From Bacillota bacterium (GTDB taxonomy: Bacteria; Bacillota; Limnochordia; DTU087), in NCBI GenBank assembly GCA_012799135.1, contig JAAZLW010000114.1, positions 1-35,090 of the forward strand: a stretch of 35,090 nt of DNA, read 5' to 3'. Shown here piece by piece: positions 5,049 to 28,104 of this stretch (positions are counted from its first letter, which is position 1; the number at the start of each line of letters is the position of its first letter). The translations under genes were made by a program, and so were the position numbers. The notes beneath the pieces are model-generated. The model made no database searches and was not told where the DNA came from. It saw only the letters and a program-made list of their open reading frames with translations.

Positions 5049-5972
5049 CTATGCAGAGAAGGAAGGCTGCAGATACTCCACCCTAGGGGTAAAGTCAACT
5101 GCTTCCAGCATCTTAAGATAGTCTGCGGGTCCGATCTCTTCCGGGCGCTTGCCGATCAGTGCTACCAGCACTGCCTCCATAACATTAGTCCCAAACGAGC
5201 GTCCGCATAGATTAGGGGTAGAGGTGATCAACGTCTTTACACCCTTTTGCCTCAGTTTCGCAATATCATCCTCTGTGACTGTATTAGTGACAATTATCTT
5301 ACCCTGCAAGTCATCCGGCATGTGGCTGCTGATAAAAAGATAATCACCAGCGATAATATCGGCCCAATGATAGTATTTGGCATACCTAACCTTTGGCTGT
5401 TCCTGCTTCTCCCCAGTGGGATAAAGCAAATGGAAAGGAAGGCGTACCGCTATTGGAGCCGCTATTCTGGCCACAGCACTTAAGGCACCTAGGCTTCGCA
5501 ATGGAATGGGAACTCCTAGCCCAAACATCAGATCACCGACAATCATGTCACAACCCGCCGCTGCAAAAGCTTCAGCCATACCGAAACGGTCGACCGCGGA
5601 CACCATAAATAAATGGCAGCGCCTTAATTCCATCCCCAAATCCTCTTGGAGGAAGGACACAACTCTTCTTTCCAGGCTGTTTTTCAGACCTGAACCGTCT
5701 ACCAAGGGTGTCTTCTGGGCAACGGCCGAAAAGCGTTTAGAATCACGAATTGTATATCTCCTTTTCCCGGCAAATATATACATGTCAATACCACCAAGAC
5801 CAAAGGCATCGACCTTGCCATCCAGATCCCGAATCATGGCTACCGCAGCGTCCATATCTCCATCGGTTCCGATGCGTTCGATGAGGAATCTCTCACCCAT
5901 AATCTCAATCTCTGCCCTATGATCTCGCTTAGAGGACCCTATACTAATACTCATCACGTGTTTCACAGACAT
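5049..5972 (-). CDS. Conserved protein of unknown function (homologs sometimes labelled 'quinate 5-dehydrogenase')
   Basis: MSVKHVMSISIGSSKRDHRAEIEIMGERFLIERIGTDGD...DAFGLGGIDMYIF...TPLVDGSGLKNSLERR. Start at 5984 also possible. Confidence 0.8.
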   Translation of the reverse strand: MSVKHVMSISIGSSKRDHRAEIEIMGERFLIERIGTDGDMDAAVAMIRDLDGKVDAFGLGGIDMYIFAGKRRYTIRDSKRFSAVAQKTPLVDGSGLKNSLERRVVSFLQEDLGMELRRCHLFMVSAVDRFGMAEAFAAAGCDMIVGDLMFGLGVPIPLRSLGALSAVARIAAPIAVRLPFHLLYPTGEKQEQPKVRYAKYYHWADIIAGDYLFISSHMPDDLQGKIIVTNTVTEDDIAKLRQKGVKTLITSTPNLCGRSFGTNVMEAVLVALIGKRPEEIGPADYLKMLEAVDFTPRVEYLQPSFSA

Positions 5973-6033
5973 GCCTCCATCCATAAATAAGCTTTACTTT
6001 TGGGCTCACCAGACCTGCCCCTCTGCTCTAAAG

Positions 6034-6570
6034 CTAGTTTGAAGTATCCATCAACGAACGAATTACAGCCTGCAAATCCCGTGGATCAACATACTTGTCC
6101 TCCTGCATGGGCGATTTACCTAGCTCAATTCCCAAGAGGGTCCCTGGTTCTAGCATGGCCTCCACCAATTTAATCCGCATATCTGAACCCAGGAAAATAA
6201 CTGTGTCATAATCCCTTAGCTGAGAAAACATCACCATTAGCTCATTGACCAGTTGCACGCCGCTACGATCCTGGGCGAAATCCCAGCGCTCATCATCAGT
6301 CATCACCAGGACATAATCCACTCCTTCTTGTCGGGCCATCAGCTCGATCTCCTCCTTATTCCCAACAGGAAAGCCGATCAGAGCCAACCTACCTCCTTTA
6401 CGCACCTCTCCGAGACCCTCCAGGCGAGATATGAAGGTCCGGTCAACCCCTATCTGATCAGCCACTTCCTGTTGCGACTGTCCCTGAGACCGCAATTGCA
6501 GAATCCTTTCCACTGTCCTGTGTATACGGCCAATGCTGACCAACTTCTCTCCAATGCGGAGTAGTTCCAT
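6034..6570 (-). CDS. HTH-domain transcriptional regulator with C-terminal putative sensor domain
   Basis: HTH stretch GQSQQEVADQIGVDRTFISRLE. First gene of the cluster with the unknown protein and the AAR-like gene; gaps about 50-75 nt. Confidence 0.75.
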   Translation of the reverse strand: MELLRIGEKLVSIGRIHRTVERILQLRSQGQSQQEVADQIGVDRTFISRLEGLGEVRKGGRLALIGFPVGNKEEIELMARQEGVDYVLVMTDDERWDFAQDRSGVQLVNELMVMFSQLRDYDTVIFLGSDMRIKLVEAMLEPGTLLGIELGKSPMQEDKYVDPRDLQAVIRSLMDTSN

Positions 6571-6615
6571 GTCTCATTCCACCTTAAGTTTGCACGTATC
6601 CCCCGACTTCTATGT

Positions 6616-6629
6616 GCACAAGATTGTGC
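6616..6629. promoter_or_regulatory. Inverted repeat GCACAA-GA-TTGTGC, candidate operator
   Basis: Perfect 6-2-6 dyad just downstream of the predicted -10, overlapping the expected start site of the HTH gene operon. Confidence 0.45.
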
Positions 6630-6637
6630 TCAGCAAC

Positions 6638-6666
6638 ATATTACCAGACCCCTCGATGACTTGCAA
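6638..6666 (-). promoter_or_regulatory. SigA-type promoter for the HTH/unknown/AAR-like operon
   Basis: Minus strand TTGCAA (6666-6661), 17 nt, TAATAT (6643-6638). Confidence 0.6.
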
Positions 6667-6745
6667 GGGTTACGATCGGCCTAAACGGAGTAAATGGCCG
6701 CACACATGATGAAGCATCATCATCGTCTCTGAAGTCTCATGCAAA

Positions 6746-6775
6746 ACAAAAAAGGCCTCCGCAAACTACGGAGAC
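6746..6775 (-). terminator. Rho-independent terminator downstream of dusB
   Basis: Minus strand GGTCTCCG-TAGTTTG-CGGAGGCC followed by TTTTTTG. Confidence 0.8.
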
Positions 6776-6844
6776 CGCTTCATATCTTTAATTCGATACC
6801 AATAGTGTTGTCTGATGCTTGTCTATCAACCCAGACATGAGCCT

Positions 6845-7816
6845 CTAGCTTTGAACCAACTGGATTGAGTTTTGCAGTAAATCCTCAACTTCTGCTATTG
6901 ACTCAGCACGATTCAGTTGCTGGCGAAGAACTGCTGCTTGTGGGAAACCCTTAGTATACCAAGCGAGTTGTGGACGCATGGTACGAACAGCCATATACTC
7001 ACCCCTTAGGGCAGCCAACTGATTTAGATGGAGCAGGGCCAAATCTGCCCTTTCTCCCAGGGACGGTCTAGGCAGGTATTCTCCATGGCGCAGGTAGTGG
7101 TCAATCTCTCTTAGCAGCCAGGGATTACCGAGCGCCCCGCGCCCAATCATAACTCCATCACAGCCGGTCCGCTGTAACAATTCCAGAGCCGTATCCGCAG
7201 ATTTGACATCGCCATTTCCCCAGACAGGTACACTCACCCTGGCCTTGACGGCCGCAATGCATTCCCAGTTGGCCTTCCCTCGGTAGAATTGCTCTCGGTA
7301 ACGGCCATGAATGGCTAACCCTTGGGCACCGGCCCTAACTAGCAAAGGAGCTAGCTCCACTGCGGAGGGAGATGTCTCGTCCCATCCTCGTCGCATTTTC
7401 ACAGTGACTGGACAGGTAGAGCTGCGGGCTACACTTTCCACCACCTGAGCAGCCCGATCCGGATCGAGCATCAAAGCAGCCCCGTCACCATTTTTTACTA
7501 TCTTGGGAGTCGGGCAACCCATGTTTATGTCGATAAAATCAGGCTGCAAATCCGCTAAGAACTTGGCTGCCTTTCCCATAAGCTTGGGTTCAGAGCCAAA
7601 GAGCTGCATTGCCAAGGGGCGCTCCTCTTCAGCAAAGGTCACGAGCTCCCTGGTCCGCTCATTATTGTATAGAAGCCCCCTGGAGCTGACCATTTCGGTG
7701 AAAACCAATCCCACTCCCATTTTCCTGGCAATCGCCCTGAATACCGAATCAGTCACACCGGCCATGGGGGCAAGGGCCACTGGGCTCTCTATTTTTACCC
7801 CGCCGATACGAAGCAA
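6845..7816 (-). CDS. dusB: tRNA-dihydrouridine synthase (DusB type)
   Basis: VALAPMAGVTDSVFR, DFIDINMGCPTPKIVKNGDGAALM, GCDGVMIGRGALGNPWL. Confidence 0.95.
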   Translation of the reverse strand: MLRIGGVKIESPVALAPMAGVTDSVFRAIARKMGVGLVFTEMVSSRGLLYNNERTRELVTFAEEERPLAMQLFGSEPKLMGKAAKFLADLQPDFIDINMGCPTPKIVKNGDGAALMLDPDRAAQVVESVARSSTCPVTVKMRRGWDETSPSAVELAPLLVRAGAQGLAIHGRYREQFYRGKANWECIAAVKARVSVPVWGNGDVKSADTALELLQRTGCDGVMIGRGALGNPWLLREIDHYLRHGEYLPRPSLGERADLALLHLNQLAALRGEYMAVRTMRPQLAWYTKGFPQAAVLRQQLNRAESIAEVEDLLQNSIQLVQS

Positions 7817-7878
7817 AAGTCATCACCTCATAGTTCCCTTGCTACTATTCTTACCCTGCCCTGCATGCATAGGTCAAT

Positions 7879-7905
7879 AAAAAAAGCAGGAGCTGTGCCC
7901 TGCTT
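7879..7905 (-). terminator. Rho-independent terminator downstream of rpmE
   Basis: Minus strand GCAGG-GCACAGCT-CCTGC followed by TTTTTTT. Confidence 0.75.
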
Positions 7906-7936
7906 TGCATACGTATGCATCCAACCTACCGTACAC

Positions 7937-8146
7937 TTACTCCTCTGGTAAATTGTACTTTCTCCGAAACCGTTCAACCCGCCCACCGGTATCCACTAGC
8001 TTTTGCCTTTGTCCTGTATAAAAGGGGTGGCACTGGGAACAGACTTCCACTCTAAGATTTTCCCGGGTGGAACCAGTCTCAAAGCTAGCACCACAGGCAC
8101 AGGTAACTGTCGTCTGGTGGTATTGTGGATGAATCTTCTCCTTCAT
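7937..8146 (-). CDS. rpmE: 50S ribosomal protein L31 (zinc-binding type)
   Basis: 69 aa [45 protein letters not shown]; CxC and CxxC present. Confidence 0.96.
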
Positions 8147-8195
8147 GGCCTGTCACCTCTTTCCCCATATCTGTCTGCCGGTCACATACCAATGA

Positions 8196-8224
8196 ATTAT
8201 AACATGATGGATATAGGGGTGCAA
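8196..8224 (-). promoter_or_regulatory. SigA-type promoter for rpmE
   Basis: Minus strand TTGCAC (8224-8219), 17 nt, TATAAT (8201-8196). Confidence 0.7.
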
Positions 8225-8266
8225 GCACCTATATGCCCCTTTTATGGTATGCTACTGCCGATTCGC

Positions 8267-9367
8267 CTAACGCATCAAATATTTCTCTGGATCTACCGCC
8301 TTACCTCGGTAGCGTATCTCAAAATGGATATGGGGACCTGTTGAAATGCCGGTATTGCCACTATAGGCAATGATCTGTCCCCGCTTGACGCTATCCCCTG
8401 CCCGCACTGCTAACCTTGAGTTATGGGCATACCTGGTTTCCACCCTCTGCCCATGGTCCACGATCACTAGGTTGCCATATGTCCCCCGGGGACCACTCCA
8501 AGAGACTCGACCATCGGCCGCTGCCCTCACCGGCGTACCGGTGACAACCGCTAGGTCAAGTCCATAGTGCATTCTGCCCCAGCGAGGACCATAGCGAGAA
8601 GATATACGTCCTCGAGCCGGCCAATCAAAAGCACGACGTAGTTGCCCATTGGAGGCCACCAGCAAATGACGCTGAGCTGCCACAGCTTGGGCTCCGGGGA
8701 TGACCAGCCTTTGCCCCACTCTTAGCGAAGATGGATCTAACAATTCGTTAGCTTCCACGATATCCTGTGTCTTGACTTGGTAGGCCCGGGCAATGTCCCA
8801 AACATTGTCTCCCAGCCTAACCGTATGTAAAGCGCCTTTGATTGTCAATATGGTCAGATTCTGGCCAACCTGCAAGCGCTGCGGATCGTTTAGCTGATTG
8901 GCGGCAACGACTGTATCAATATCGATCCCATACAGCTTAGCAATGTCCCACAGGGTCTGACCTCGTTCCACGACGTGCGTCAATACCAGTGGTTTTGGTT
9001 CCGGAGCCTCTGGCTTCTCCTCTGGCTCCTCTCCCGCCGGCCCAGCTTCCTCATCAATAGATTCACCCACTGCCACAGATTCTATATCTTCCAGTGCTAC
9101 TAGTTGAGTACCATCACCCATCACCTCCATGGCTAGGGCTATGTCGTCCTCGCTAGCTAGCTCACCGGGAAATTCGACATCGAGCGGATCGGGGCCACCT
9201 TGATTGGAGACTCCCAGTAGATTCTGGTTCCACGTAAAATACACCGGTGAATCAGAAGTCAACCTCGAGCTTTCATCTGTAACAGTCAAAGCGACAAGAA
9301 TCATCAACAGTAACAGGGTCCATCCCGGACGCCAGCGCCTGCTGTGGTTGTCGTCCAATGCTCCCAC
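8267..9367 (-). CDS. M23-family peptidase with two LysM domains and N-terminal membrane anchor
   Basis: LysM repeats HVVERGQTLWDIAKLYGIDIDTVVAANQL and HTVRLGDNVWDIARAYQVKTQDIVEANEL; M23 motif GRMHYGLDLAVVTGTPVRAAADG...GNTGISTGPHIHFEIR. Confidence 0.93.
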   Translation of the reverse strand: MGALDDNHSRRWRPGWTLLLLMILVALTVTDESSRLTSDSPVYFTWNQNLLGVSNQGGPDPLDVEFPGELASEDDIALAMEVMGDGTQLVALEDIESVAVGESIDEEAGPAGEEPEEKPEAPEPKPLVLTHVVERGQTLWDIAKLYGIDIDTVVAANQLNDPQRLQVGQNLTILTIKGALHTVRLGDNVWDIARAYQVKTQDIVEANELLDPSSLRVGQRLVIPGAQAVAAQRHLLVASNGQLRRAFDWPARGRISSRYGPRWGRMHYGLDLAVVTGTPVRAAADGRVSWSGPRGTYGNLVIVDHGQRVETRYAHNSRLAVRAGDSVKRGQIIAYSGNTGISTGPHIHFEIRYRGKAVDPEKYLMR

Positions 9368-9589
9368 CCCAATCCAATGGAATCCATTTTGCTAACTTCT
9401 TGCCATTGGCATCCAAATCCTCTTTTTGCTGCGAAATTGATCTTTAGGTTTATTTCTCCAGTTAAGCCAATAGTCCTTCACCCGTTTGTTCTATACGAAC
9501 AGCTGTGAGCTTAGCTTGGCGCGATGAACTACTACCAATATCAAACAGCCTGCCCTAAGAACATGACTTACCACACTCGGAAGCAGAGG

Positions 9590-10861
9590 TTAGGATGAGC
9601 GTACGTTTTCAGCAAAGGTAGAATTAATGACAATATCCATCAGTTCTGCGTTAGATTTGGTATGCATAATCCGGTCAATCACGATATCTGTGGTTTCCGC
9701 TGTCCCTACCGAACTAAAGGCTTTTCGCAAGAGCCACATCATCTCCAGCTCCTGTTCCGTTAGCAAGAGCTCCTCTTTTCTTGTACCTGACCGGTAAATG
9801 TCAATGGCGGGGAAAATGCGGCGCTCAGCAAGGCGGCGATCTAGGTGAAGCTCCATGTTGCCAGTGCCCTTGAACTCTTCATAAATCACATCATCCATCC
9901 GGGATCCGGTCTCAATCAACGCTGTAGCCAGTATGGTAAGGCTGCCACCTTCCTCTAGCTTTCGAGCGGCACCGAAAAACCGTTTGGGCCGATGCAGAGC
10001 AGCCGGGTCAACTCCACCGGACAATGTGCGCCCACTCGGCGGCACCACCAGATTATGGGCTCGAGCCAGACGAGTGATGCTATCTAACAAGATGACGACA
10101 TCCTTGCCATGCTCCACCAACCGCCGAGCCCTCTCCAAGACCATATCTGCCACCCTCACGTGGTTCTCAGGTGGTTGGTCAAAGGTCGAACTCGTCACTT
10201 CCCCGTCTACAGAACGCTGCATATCTGTGACTTCCTCGGGGCGCTCATCAATCAGCAACACCATTAACTCAATTTCGTCATGATTATGGGTGATGCTATT
10301 GGCTATTTTCTTTAGCACTGTAGTCTTACCGGCCTTTGGTGGTGCCACAATCAGGCCTCTTTGACCTTTACCCAAAGGTGCCACTAGATCGATGAGTCGG
10401 GTTGCTGTGTCTTCCTGTGAGACTTCCAACCGTATTCTTTCATGGGGATAGATGGGGGTGAGGTCTTCAAAGTTGGGTCGGCGAGTAGCCTTCTCAGGGT
10501 CGAGATTGTTTACTGCCACCACTCGCAGGAGTGCATAGTAGCGTTCATTGTCCTTAGGTGATCGTACCTGTCCCAAGATTAAGTCCCCAGTACGTAAGTT
10601 GAAGCGCCGGATCTGTGATGGTGAGATGTAGACATCCTCGTTACTGGGAGTATACCCATCTACCCGCAGAAATCCGTAGCCATCGGGCAGAATCTCCAGT
10701 ACACCATCTTTGAACATCAGTCCCTCTTTGTTGGTTTCGGCTTTGAGGATCTCAAAAATCAGTTCCCGCTTACGAAACCGTGTATATCCGGCAATCTCCA
10801 AATCTTTAGCAATTTCTTGCAGCTCAGCCGATGTCTTTTCTTCCAGTTGGGAAATATTCAT
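9590..10861 (-). CDS. rho: Transcription termination factor Rho
   Basis: [26 protein letters not shown] (Walker A), [45 protein letters not shown]. Start at internal ATG after AAGGAGTGG. Confidence 0.98.
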
Positions 10862-25800: not shown

Positions 25801-26913
25801 ATGAGGGAGACTAGGAAAAGGCTGGTTTGGGGGATCATACTGATCGTTGTCTCGGTAGGTGTTATTCGATTTTTGAAGATCACCGATTCGTGGCAAGAAA
25901 TGGCTTGGGTAATCGGCATCTTGGTAGTAAACTTCCTGGTCGTGGGCATAGGGGTTTTTTTCCGAAAGCAAAAAGTCGAAGACCTGGAAGATGTCACCAA
26001 ACAGCTGGCAGCCGGCGATTTCAGTGCAACTGATACCCTGACTGCCAGTGAGGATAGGCTGCTTGGCTCTTTGGGCCGTGCTCTGGCTACACTGGGAGAT
26101 AGGCTGCGCCACTTCATGAACAATGCTCAACAGATCGCCAATGATGTGGTGCAAAGCGGGGATGAGCTCCTCACTACCTCCGAACAGATCAATGCATCTA
26201 TTCAGGAAGTGGCCAGTGCAGCTAACCAATTCGCTAGCGGTGTTCAGCAAGTTGGGGCTACATCTAAGGTTTTGGCTGATTCTTCATCCCGGGTGGGCGA
26301 AATCACAGAAGAGCACCTGACAAGAATCCAGGATGTTGTCACTCAGATGGCCCAGATCGAGCAAGCCATCACGCAACTGTCGGAGATTCGCGAAGATCTG
26401 AGTCAGCGTTATGAGCAGATCAATCGCTTTGTCGGAGTTATTACGGATATCGCAGAACAGACGAATATGCTAGCTCTCAATGCCGCCATCGAAGCCGCCC
26501 GGGCCGGCGACCAGGGGCGGGGCTTTGCTGTAGTGGCAGAGGAGGTTCGTCAGCTTGCAGAACAGTCGCGCAGAGCTGCAAACGAAGTCCAGAGGGTGGT
26601 CGCCAACATCTCGGAAGGAGATGCTCAAGCCGATGCTGCTGTCGAAACCAATGTGCGAGCGGTAAAAGGCGGCCGCGATATCCTTGAATCTATGACGGAA
26701 AGTTTTGCAGAGGTCAAGGAAGAAGTGGACAGGTCCGTTACAGAGATGCAGAACATCAACTCCAGTATCCAGCAGTTGAGCAGTGGAAGCCAACAGATTG
26801 CAGCAGCTGCAGAACAACAGGCCGCGTCTATCGAGCAGATCTCAGATAAGGCCCAAGTCCTCAATGAGATAGCTGAGCGCTTGCGTAACCATATCCAAGA
26901 ATTTCGGGCATAG
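25801..26913 (+). CDS. Methyl-accepting chemotaxis protein, minimal N-terminus
   Basis: Two close TM segments, then an MCP signalling domain: [47 protein letters not shown] upstream. Confidence 0.92.
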
Positions 26914-26915
26914 AC

Positions 26916-26968
26916 CCAGGCTTCCCCCGGTGGTCCCCACCACCGGGGGAAACACAAAAGGAGCCTGG
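26916..26968 (+). other. Compound hairpin immediately 3' of mcp
   Basis: TTCCCCCGGTGGT-CCCC-ACCACCGGGGGAA (13-bp stem, 26922-26951), flanked by CCAGGCT/AGCCTGG. Confidence 0.7.
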
Positions 26969-26970
26969 AG

Positions 26971-27341
26971 TGATCTTCGCTCCGACCAACGTACCTCCCT
27001 ACAGATCCTACAGCAACCTTTCGGCTACTATAGAACCTTACGAGAACTACGCTGATCTTCGCCCGACCACCACGAGTCACAGTCAGAACCCATGATGACC
27101 TGACGGCCATCATAGATCCTTAAGCAACCCGAGGTGATCTTGGCCCGGCTACTACAGATCCCTCCGGAGCCAGTAACAGCTTACTTAGCTGTTACCGACC
27201 ACCTATGAGACCTGTAATAACCTTGGCGCCGGCCAAAGCTGATCCTCTAGCTTGGAACCAGCTTTGACCTTTGCTCGACCCACACAGATCCTCATCAGAA
27301 CCTGTATGGATCTGCGCTCAACCACTACAGACCCCTTTATC
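26971..27341. repeat. Degenerate tandem repeat array, main period about 41-43 nt, non-coding
   Basis: Units begin at 27033, 27074, 27115, 27157, 27209, 27241, 27287 and 27330 plus flanking partials. Approximate consensus GATCCTtaagcaGAACCyatgaTGATCTTcGCcCGaCCACtACA. Confidence 0.65.
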
Positions 27342-27370
27342 GCAACCCAAGAAGCAGCAACTTGGGTTGC
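27342..27370 (+). other. Perfect 10-bp hairpin at the end of the repeat array
   Basis: GCAACCCAAG-AAGCAGCAA-CTTGGGTTGC. Confidence 0.7.
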
Positions 27371-27379
27371 ACTAATAAG

Positions 27380-27402
27380 ATACCCCGCAATCAGCGGGGT
27401 AT
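27380..27402. terminator. Possible bidirectional terminator between mcp and rex
   Basis: ATACCCCGC-AATCA-GCGGGGTAT; only weak T-tracts on either side. Confidence 0.45.
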
Positions 27403-27468: not shown

Positions 27469-28104
27469 CTATAGTCCGACATAGTATGCTAACCGCTGAA
27501 GCTCTAGGCTCAGATCAACATTGGCTACATGCACATTATCGGAAACTTCCAACTGCACCGGAGCGAAATTCAAGATAGCCTTTATGCCGGCATCAACCAG
27601 AGTATTGCTGACTGCTTGAGCAGCATCGGCGGGCACGGTAATAATCGCCAGCTGAATCTCCAGTTCCCTGATTATCCTAGCAATCTCCTCCAGTCCATAG
27701 ATCGGCACTCCATCTATGGTATCTCCCATCAACTTAGGATTCACGTCAAAAAGAGCTACTAGCTTGATGGTGAATATCGGATCCTCTAGAAAACGTCGGC
27801 GGTTGTAGCGGGCCAGAGCATGTCCTAGACTACCTACTCCTACTAGTGCCATATGGAGTGGCTCATCTAGATGCAAGATCTTGCGCAGCTCATCTTGAAG
27901 GAACCCTACATCATAGCCTACTCCCTGTTTACCAAACTCACCGAACCAGGCCAAGTCCTTACGTACCAATGCCGGCGTCACACTGGCTTTCGCTCCTAAC
28001 TCCTGTGAGGAAATCGATGGTTGCTTATCTCTTACTTCCTCCAGTACTCGCAGATATATCGGCAACCGGCGAATAACCGCATCGGAGATCCCTTTCCATG
28101 CCAC
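27469..28104 (-). CDS. rex: Redox-sensing transcriptional repressor Rex
   Basis: ISDAVIRRLPIYLRVLEEV, VRKDLAWFGEFGKQGVGYDV, MALVGVGSLGHALARY. Confidence 0.95.
   Translation of the reverse strand: MAWKGISDAVIRRLPIYLRVLEEVRDKQPSISSQELGAKASVTPALVRKDLAWFGEFGKQGVGYDVGFLQDELRKILHLDEPLHMALVGVGSLGHALARYNRRRFLEDPIFTIKLVALFDVNPKLMGDTIDGVPIYGLEEIARIIRELEIQLAIITVPADAAQAVSNTLVDAGIKAILNFAPVQLEVSDNVHVANVDLSLELQRLAYYVGL

Follow-up and report, generated by a model that had tools for sequence, protein, structure and literature searches.

The interval between the convergent mcp and rex genes of the window (the whole 35,090-nt stretch of DNA analyzed) is a predicted minus-strand gene for a structured noncoding RNA of about 380 to 410 nt, running from about position 27370 to 26958. 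It almost certainly represents a real, so far unrecognized class of large structured RNA. Our reading as a whole, that of a new class of large, ornate forespore RNA with wobble-register contact faces, probably acting as a compact scaffold, is one we consider probable. In Pfam searches the flanking genes gave an MCP signaling domain at 25801 to 26910 on the plus strand and Rex domains at 27472 to 28104 on the minus strand.

The strand and the fold of the RNA are clear from the energy calculations. The minus strand of region 26955 to 27380 folds with −246.5 kcal/mol, against −141.4 ± 4.7 kcal/mol in shuffles (z = −22.3), while the plus strand of the same interval reaches a z of only −4.4. For ten homologues, RNAalifold gave −358 kcal/mol on the minus strand, with 164 pairs, 365 G.U cells, and 50 mismatch cells, versus −192 kcal/mol on the plus strand, with 38 G.U cells and 101 mismatch cells; this much weaker plus-strand structure turns the minus-strand wobbles into A.C mismatches. 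When the structure was imposed on an independent MAFFT alignment of the family, 97.5% of cells were paired, and changes on both sides occurred at 54 pairs, compared with 21 in shuffles and 5 to 10 when the partners were slid. Across 45 sequences of the phylum, standard pairs made up 95.8% of pair cells, 131 of 149 pairs showed two-sided changes, and covariation scored 0.650 against 0.252 in shuffles (none of 500 shuffles scored as high); that alignment was fitted to the structure of the model, so these pair statistics lean towards it. Single-sequence folds are free of such alignment bias, and distant members with G+C contents from 42 to 73% fold singly into the same plan. The element is long, free-standing, noncoding, and supported by covariation, which is how large ornate bacterial noncoding RNAs are described.

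Comparison shows that a closing stem of 18 bp (P1) and five arms (P2 to P6) meet in a six-way junction, in whose linkers a G-GC-AAG-RUC theme recurs. Almost all helices are modules of about 16 bp, and P4, P5, and P6 each hold two modules around an internal loop. From 5' to 3' on the minus strand, the order is a 5' hairpin, P1, P2, P3, P4, P5, P6, and then a terminator-like hairpin. The 5' hairpin (GCAACCC...GGGTTGC, 27370 to 27342) is specific to the family of the window, where it is a covarying helix conserved in 10 sequences, and transcription is predicted to start close to its first base. The RNA body, with the six-way junction closed by P1, extends over 27337 to 26958 and is defined by the fold z-score, the covariance model, and the pair counts. 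The 5' strand of P1 (27337 to 27320) pairs with 26975 to 26958, and 16 of the 18 pairs change on both sides phylum-wide. The 3' strand of P1 and all arms were placed by the family structure together with the phylum pair counts: P2 (27312 to 27277) and P3 (27269 to 27231) are hairpins of one 15- to 16-bp module; the P4 arm (27222 to 27147) consists of P4a and P4b, 16 bp each; the P5 arm (27144 to 27061) consists of P5a, about 17 bp, and P5b, 16 bp; and the P6 arm (27057 to 26984) consists of P6a, 15 to 16 bp, and P6b, 16 bp. A GNAA tetraloop (GAAA, GGAA, or GCAA within the family) caps P6b. The terminator-like hairpin (26922 to 26951, no strand assigned), found by a hairpin call and the family alignment, lies between the 3' end of the RNA and the convergent mcp; in one relative (L006) T-runs flank it on either side, as in a bidirectional terminator. 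The P5 arm carries extra insertions in other families, and in loci L100 to L127 it often has, next to the conserved distal module, an additional variable hairpin as a fourth branch, which sets these loci apart from the family of the window.

Several other functions for the interval were considered and dropped. On the plus strand, an AAAGGAG followed by ATG or GTG (26957 to 26973) resembles a ribosome-binding site and start codon; however, the short frame behind it is broken in one locus (L011) and runs on in another (L004), it has no evident codon bias, and the apparent Shine-Dalgarno sequence is the complement of P1. The open reading frame antisense to the RNA at 26625 to 27113 had no Pfam match. 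An array of CsrA-type GGA sites was set aside because the conserved motif is GGNUC and not GGA, and a Rho utilization site would leave the covariation unexplained.

Most base pairs change freely by compensation, whereas G.U wobbles are conserved in a fixed register in nine helices. Counted from the junction, the register of the radial modules is base pairs 3, 12, and 14. P1 and P3 have wobbles at all three positions; P2 has them at 12 and 14, with 52% at 3; P4a at 3 and 12, with 47% at 14; P5a at 3 and 12, with missing pairs; and P6a at 3, 11, and 13, the last two being 12 and 14 if one skipped mismatch is counted. In the distal modules P4b, P5b, and P6b, the wobbles lie at 3, 5, and 14. Altogether, 22 pairs wobble in at least 70% of sequences, a level reached by no pair in 500 within-sequence permutations. 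One turn of an A-form helix takes 11 bp, so pairs 3 and 14 face in one direction. Among the known roles of G.U pairs are support for the along-groove packing of helices and the binding of divalent metals (PMC8793689). From this and the geometry of the register, we infer that the wobbles serve either to pack the arms or to offer a protein repeated contacts.

According to this model, the shared register would mark contact faces that are equivalent and separated by one helical turn; by way of these faces the arms may pack side by side by along-groove G.U packing with bound Mg2+, or may bind a repeated protein. The result would be a compact, nuclease-resistant particle that acts as a scaffold, for structure or for sequestration, in the forespore and in the core of the spore. 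Such a compact structural or scaffold role, for which we draw on the wobble register and general knowledge, is put forward tentatively, as a possibility somewhat short of an even chance. Rather doubtful, at the lower end of that range, is the fuller proposal of an ancient RNA component of endospores: a forespore-made nanostructure of nine equivalent modules of about 16 bp, quasi-six-fold, in which a G.U "register code" might build a compact and possibly multimeric particle with a structural or protective function in the spore core.

The same RNA class with the same forespore promoter could instead be a sponge, in which wobble-marked helices titrate a double-stranded-RNA-binding protein, a nuclease, or a regulator during sporulation and form no specific tertiary particle. 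In favor of this role are as many as nine near-equivalent sites, most of them two-fold symmetric helix ends of the type GGNUC/GGNUC with invariant G.U pairs, and the free-standing gene. However, the linkers of the six-way junction, the fixed module lengths, and the near-constant number of arms exceed what a string of sites would need, and a candidate protein is not known; we regard the sponge as unlikely, though it is the strongest competitor of the scaffold.

Both of these readings place the RNA in the forespore, and this rests on its predicted promoter. Upstream of the RNA on the minus strand (27405 to 27376), a consensus scan and a de novo motif both point to a −35 element TGCATA (27405 to 27400), a 17-nt spacer, and a −10 element TATCTTA (27382 to 27376), the last lying within GGGGTATCTTA. 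A de novo two-block search of 49 upstream regions returned one motif, (Y)GHATA-N12/13-GGGNNANAATA, which is of the sigma-F/G type and has 14.4 bits compared with about 8.0 in shuffled sequence. In nearly all families the motif ends 2 to 9 nt ahead of P1, and in the family of the window it precedes the 5' hairpin. By scanning the upstream regions with consensus strings taken from general knowledge, we obtained mean z-scores against shuffles of 2.4 for sigma-F and 2.0 for sigma-G; other types were not enriched there (sigma-A, 0.43; sigma-E, 0.5; sigma-K, 0.25; sigma-H, 0.13), and the sigma-A consensus was significant in just 2% of loci. When the matrix built from the RNA promoters was applied within the class to the 160 nt that precede spoVT, it detected sites (mean z of 2.0), including ATGAATAA-13-GCTATATACTA in the window's own genome, and it gave no signal upstream of rex (mean z of −0.08) or in arbitrary pieces (0.02). 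In Clostridioides difficile, spoVT is under the control of sigma-F and sigma-G (PMC3789822), and the consensus types of these two factors overlap (PMC7438776). A member of the sigma-F/sigma-G regulon should have a forespore-type promoter that keeps a fixed distance to the RNA, as predicted here, and the position of this promoter 2 to 9 nt before the first helix in nearly all families argues for transcription of the free-standing gene by sigma-F and/or sigma-G in the developing spore. The transcript, its ends, and its timing are predictions from sequence; on that footing, we think forespore transcription very likely.

An alternative is that the RNA is a general vegetative or stationary-phase molecule like OLE or raiA and that its link to sporulation is merely taxonomic. 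The known large RNAs of Bacillota do act outside the forespore, and the raiA RNA (ModT) has a sigma-A promoter (PMC11706538) and is nevertheless reported to affect sporulation (Soares et al. 2024, as cited in PMC12286853). The absence of a sigma-A signal upstream, the strong sigma-F/G signal, and the transfer of the promoter matrix to spoVT make this explanation improbable, clearly more so than the sponge, and we retain the reading as a forespore RNA.

We collected the first homologues by BLAST against loci obtained through the neighboring Rex protein, and these were near full-length and 74 to 92% identical. In the family of the window, the element occurs once per genome, full-length in 10 of 11 genomes and truncated in the eleventh; conservation in the family alignment is confined to the element, and the flanks are much less conserved. 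The homologues adjoin rex or lie about 4 kb away behind an ABC-transporter insertion, a three- to four-gene operon placed between rex and the RNA gene in loci L005, L006, L007, and L009 (about 5700 to 9650) and limited to one genus of the family. In the truncated copy (L009:9596-9867; genome G007, contig C104), DNA similarity extends for 159 nt and then gives way to a different, GC-rich inverted repeat; the genome is otherwise 97% complete, and the copy is a natural partial loss of the RNA.

A covariance model of the minus-strand element, as the initial annotation had proposed building for its repeat units, recovered the RNA across the class and the phylum: 24 of 73 class genomes, in eight families, had single and mostly full-length matches, and 157 of 399 sampled phylum genomes had matches, mostly one copy and sometimes two or three. 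The model was built from ten members of the window's family only, so misses elsewhere may be undetected homologues. It gave no match in Alkaliphilus pronyensis or in any of 151 genomes of an outgroup phylum (that of a Herpetosiphonaceae genome), and plasmids and phages had no BLASTN match with one phylum member (L106) as the query. Among the multicopy genomes are G145 (contig C9, 1331 to 1734 and 3944 to 4338), G442 (three contigs), G224, G362, and others; the copies of G145 and of G362 share one contig, and such paralogues could tell whether copies specialize.

The RNA is restricted almost entirely to genomes with the sporulation sigma factor gene sigG, which is present in 154 of the 157 carriers of the phylum sample. 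Of 67 sampled genomes that lack sigG, only 3 carry the RNA (Fisher p = 1.8e-12, a value inflated by shared ancestry), and these three are draft assemblies of 170 to 360 contigs and 61 to 93% completeness. Within the class, two draft genomes (G021 and G022) carry the RNA with no sigG above the cutoff. In the opposite direction, 178 of the 332 sigG carriers of the sample had no match to the model, including class families f7 and f13. It seems that sporulation does not require the RNA everywhere, so that it is accessory in part of the phylum, or that it is too divergent there for the model to reach. Given its occurrence in many spore-forming Bacillota and a promoter type used in the developing spore, the RNA is probably an unrecognized part of endospore formation.

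No neighbor gene is fixed: TrmK is the neighbor in seven loci and SpoVA genes are neighbors in at most three, the rest being mostly unrelated. This variation favors a free-standing RNA gene over a cis-regulator. Among the neighbors in loci L086 to L127, the models for SpoVAC, SpoVAD, and SpoVAE have three matches apiece in the flanking proteins, perhaps to one and the same set, so that forespore-expressed genes stand beside the RNA in a few loci; in one phylum member, a cluster of four tRNAs lies directly downstream (L105:2058-2557). A cis-acting 3' element, such as a Rho-dependent or structured terminator between mcp and rex, would fit the position of the RNA in the window between two convergent 3' ends and beside a terminator-like hairpin, but flanking genes differ in identity and direction in other families and a dedicated predicted promoter faces the RNA, which makes this account very improbable. 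Therefore, of the suggestion in the initial annotation that the interval might hold a structured 3' RNA, the structured RNA is very strongly supported, and its assignment as a 3' element of mcp or rex fails on the RNA's own predicted minus-strand promoter and its unrelated neighbors elsewhere.

The interval was initially annotated as a degenerate tandem-repeat array at 26971 to 27341, which nearly coincides with the RNA body. The recurring blocks are present there, but as a tandem repeat the array is weak. Tandem Repeats Finder reported nothing in the interval even at a score of 30, and adjacent copies alignable head to tail, as in a minisatellite, were not found; the only direct repeats are one 21-nt family of three copies with 76 to 81% identity. 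Self-match per lag, compared with dinucleotide shuffles, was highest at lag 82 (z = 4.5), with minor values at lags 11 (2.6), 42 (2.0), 32 (2.0), and 10 (1.9). The supposed unit of 41 to 43 nt does correspond to something real, a hairpin module (16 bp, loop, 16 bp, and linker), which belongs to the quasi-symmetric minus-strand RNA. The helix ends containing G.U, namely GGAUC, GGUUC, and GGUC, read as their complements GATCC, GAACC, and GACC on the plus strand, just as the junction motif GGUCGGGCGAAGAUC reads there as its complement GATCTTCGCCCGACC; the repeated words have a structural cause. A degenerate DNA tandem repeat or decaying mobile repeat would account for the weak periodicity at 82, 42, and 11 nt but has practically no chance of being correct, being refuted by the pair-change counts, with strong compensatory evolution over the entire element, vertical conservation mostly as a single copy per genome, no Tandem Repeats Finder match, and no BLASTN match in plasmids or phages. 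Of the other earlier suggestions, a protein-binding array is possible only as an RNA that may bind protein, not as a degenerate DNA repeat, and the views that the interval encodes no repeat protein and does not resemble known RNA families were correct.

An RNA of about 400 nt with 131 covarying pairs that occurs in about 40% of sampled phylum genomes and is absent from Rfam is a rare find. If it is made in the forespore, endospores would hold a conserved RNA machine or scaffold overlooked by decades of protein-centered sporulation genetics. With the 3/12/14 register, nature would offer a design rule by which RNA helices are packed or marked, one that structure prediction and nanotechnology of RNA could both use. 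The claim is open to direct test in culturable carriers.

Searches of Rfam 15 at the curated gathering thresholds gave no match in the window or in 13 class loci, and in 20 phylum loci they gave tRNAs only, none for the RNA itself; weak E-value matches to the RNA were all far below threshold. Families without a match include raiA (RF03072), OLE, GOLLD, ROOL, 6S, tmRNA, RNase P, and SRP. We found no description of the RNA in the open-access literature; subscription papers and preprints lay outside the search, and an earlier description there is possible. The closest RNAs in kind are OLE, ROOL, GOLLD, and raiA, none of which it matches by model, size, promoter, or plan. Like the first three, it is a large, intricate, free-standing noncoding RNA supported by covariation, and OLE is also found in Bacillota. 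OLE, ROOL, and GOLLD form homo-oligomeric RNA particles (PMC12286853). At about 380 nt, it is smaller than OLE (about 600 nt) and GOLLD (often more than 800 nt); GOLLD and ROOL, unlike it, are linked to phages or prophages, and the descriptions consulted for the three mention neither a forespore promoter nor a quasi-six-fold junction built from 16-bp modules. The raiA motif is likewise a structured RNA that is widespread in Bacillota, and its disruption has an effect on sporulation, but it measures 205 to 260 nt, with a core of about 205 nt, eight helices, two pseudoknots, and a sigma-A promoter (PMC11706538), and our RNA differs in length, in architecture, and in lacking a sigma-A signal. Two further RNAs are alike in single respects. 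Bvs196 of Bacillus velezensis (294 nt) is also a sporulation-linked noncoding RNA, compared here by description only, and the available account presents it as sporulation-specific in one species. The smtA motif ("Soda Lake RNA") is likewise an orphan structured RNA of more than 350 nt with no assigned function, but it is confined to Thioalkalivibrio (PMC11109978).
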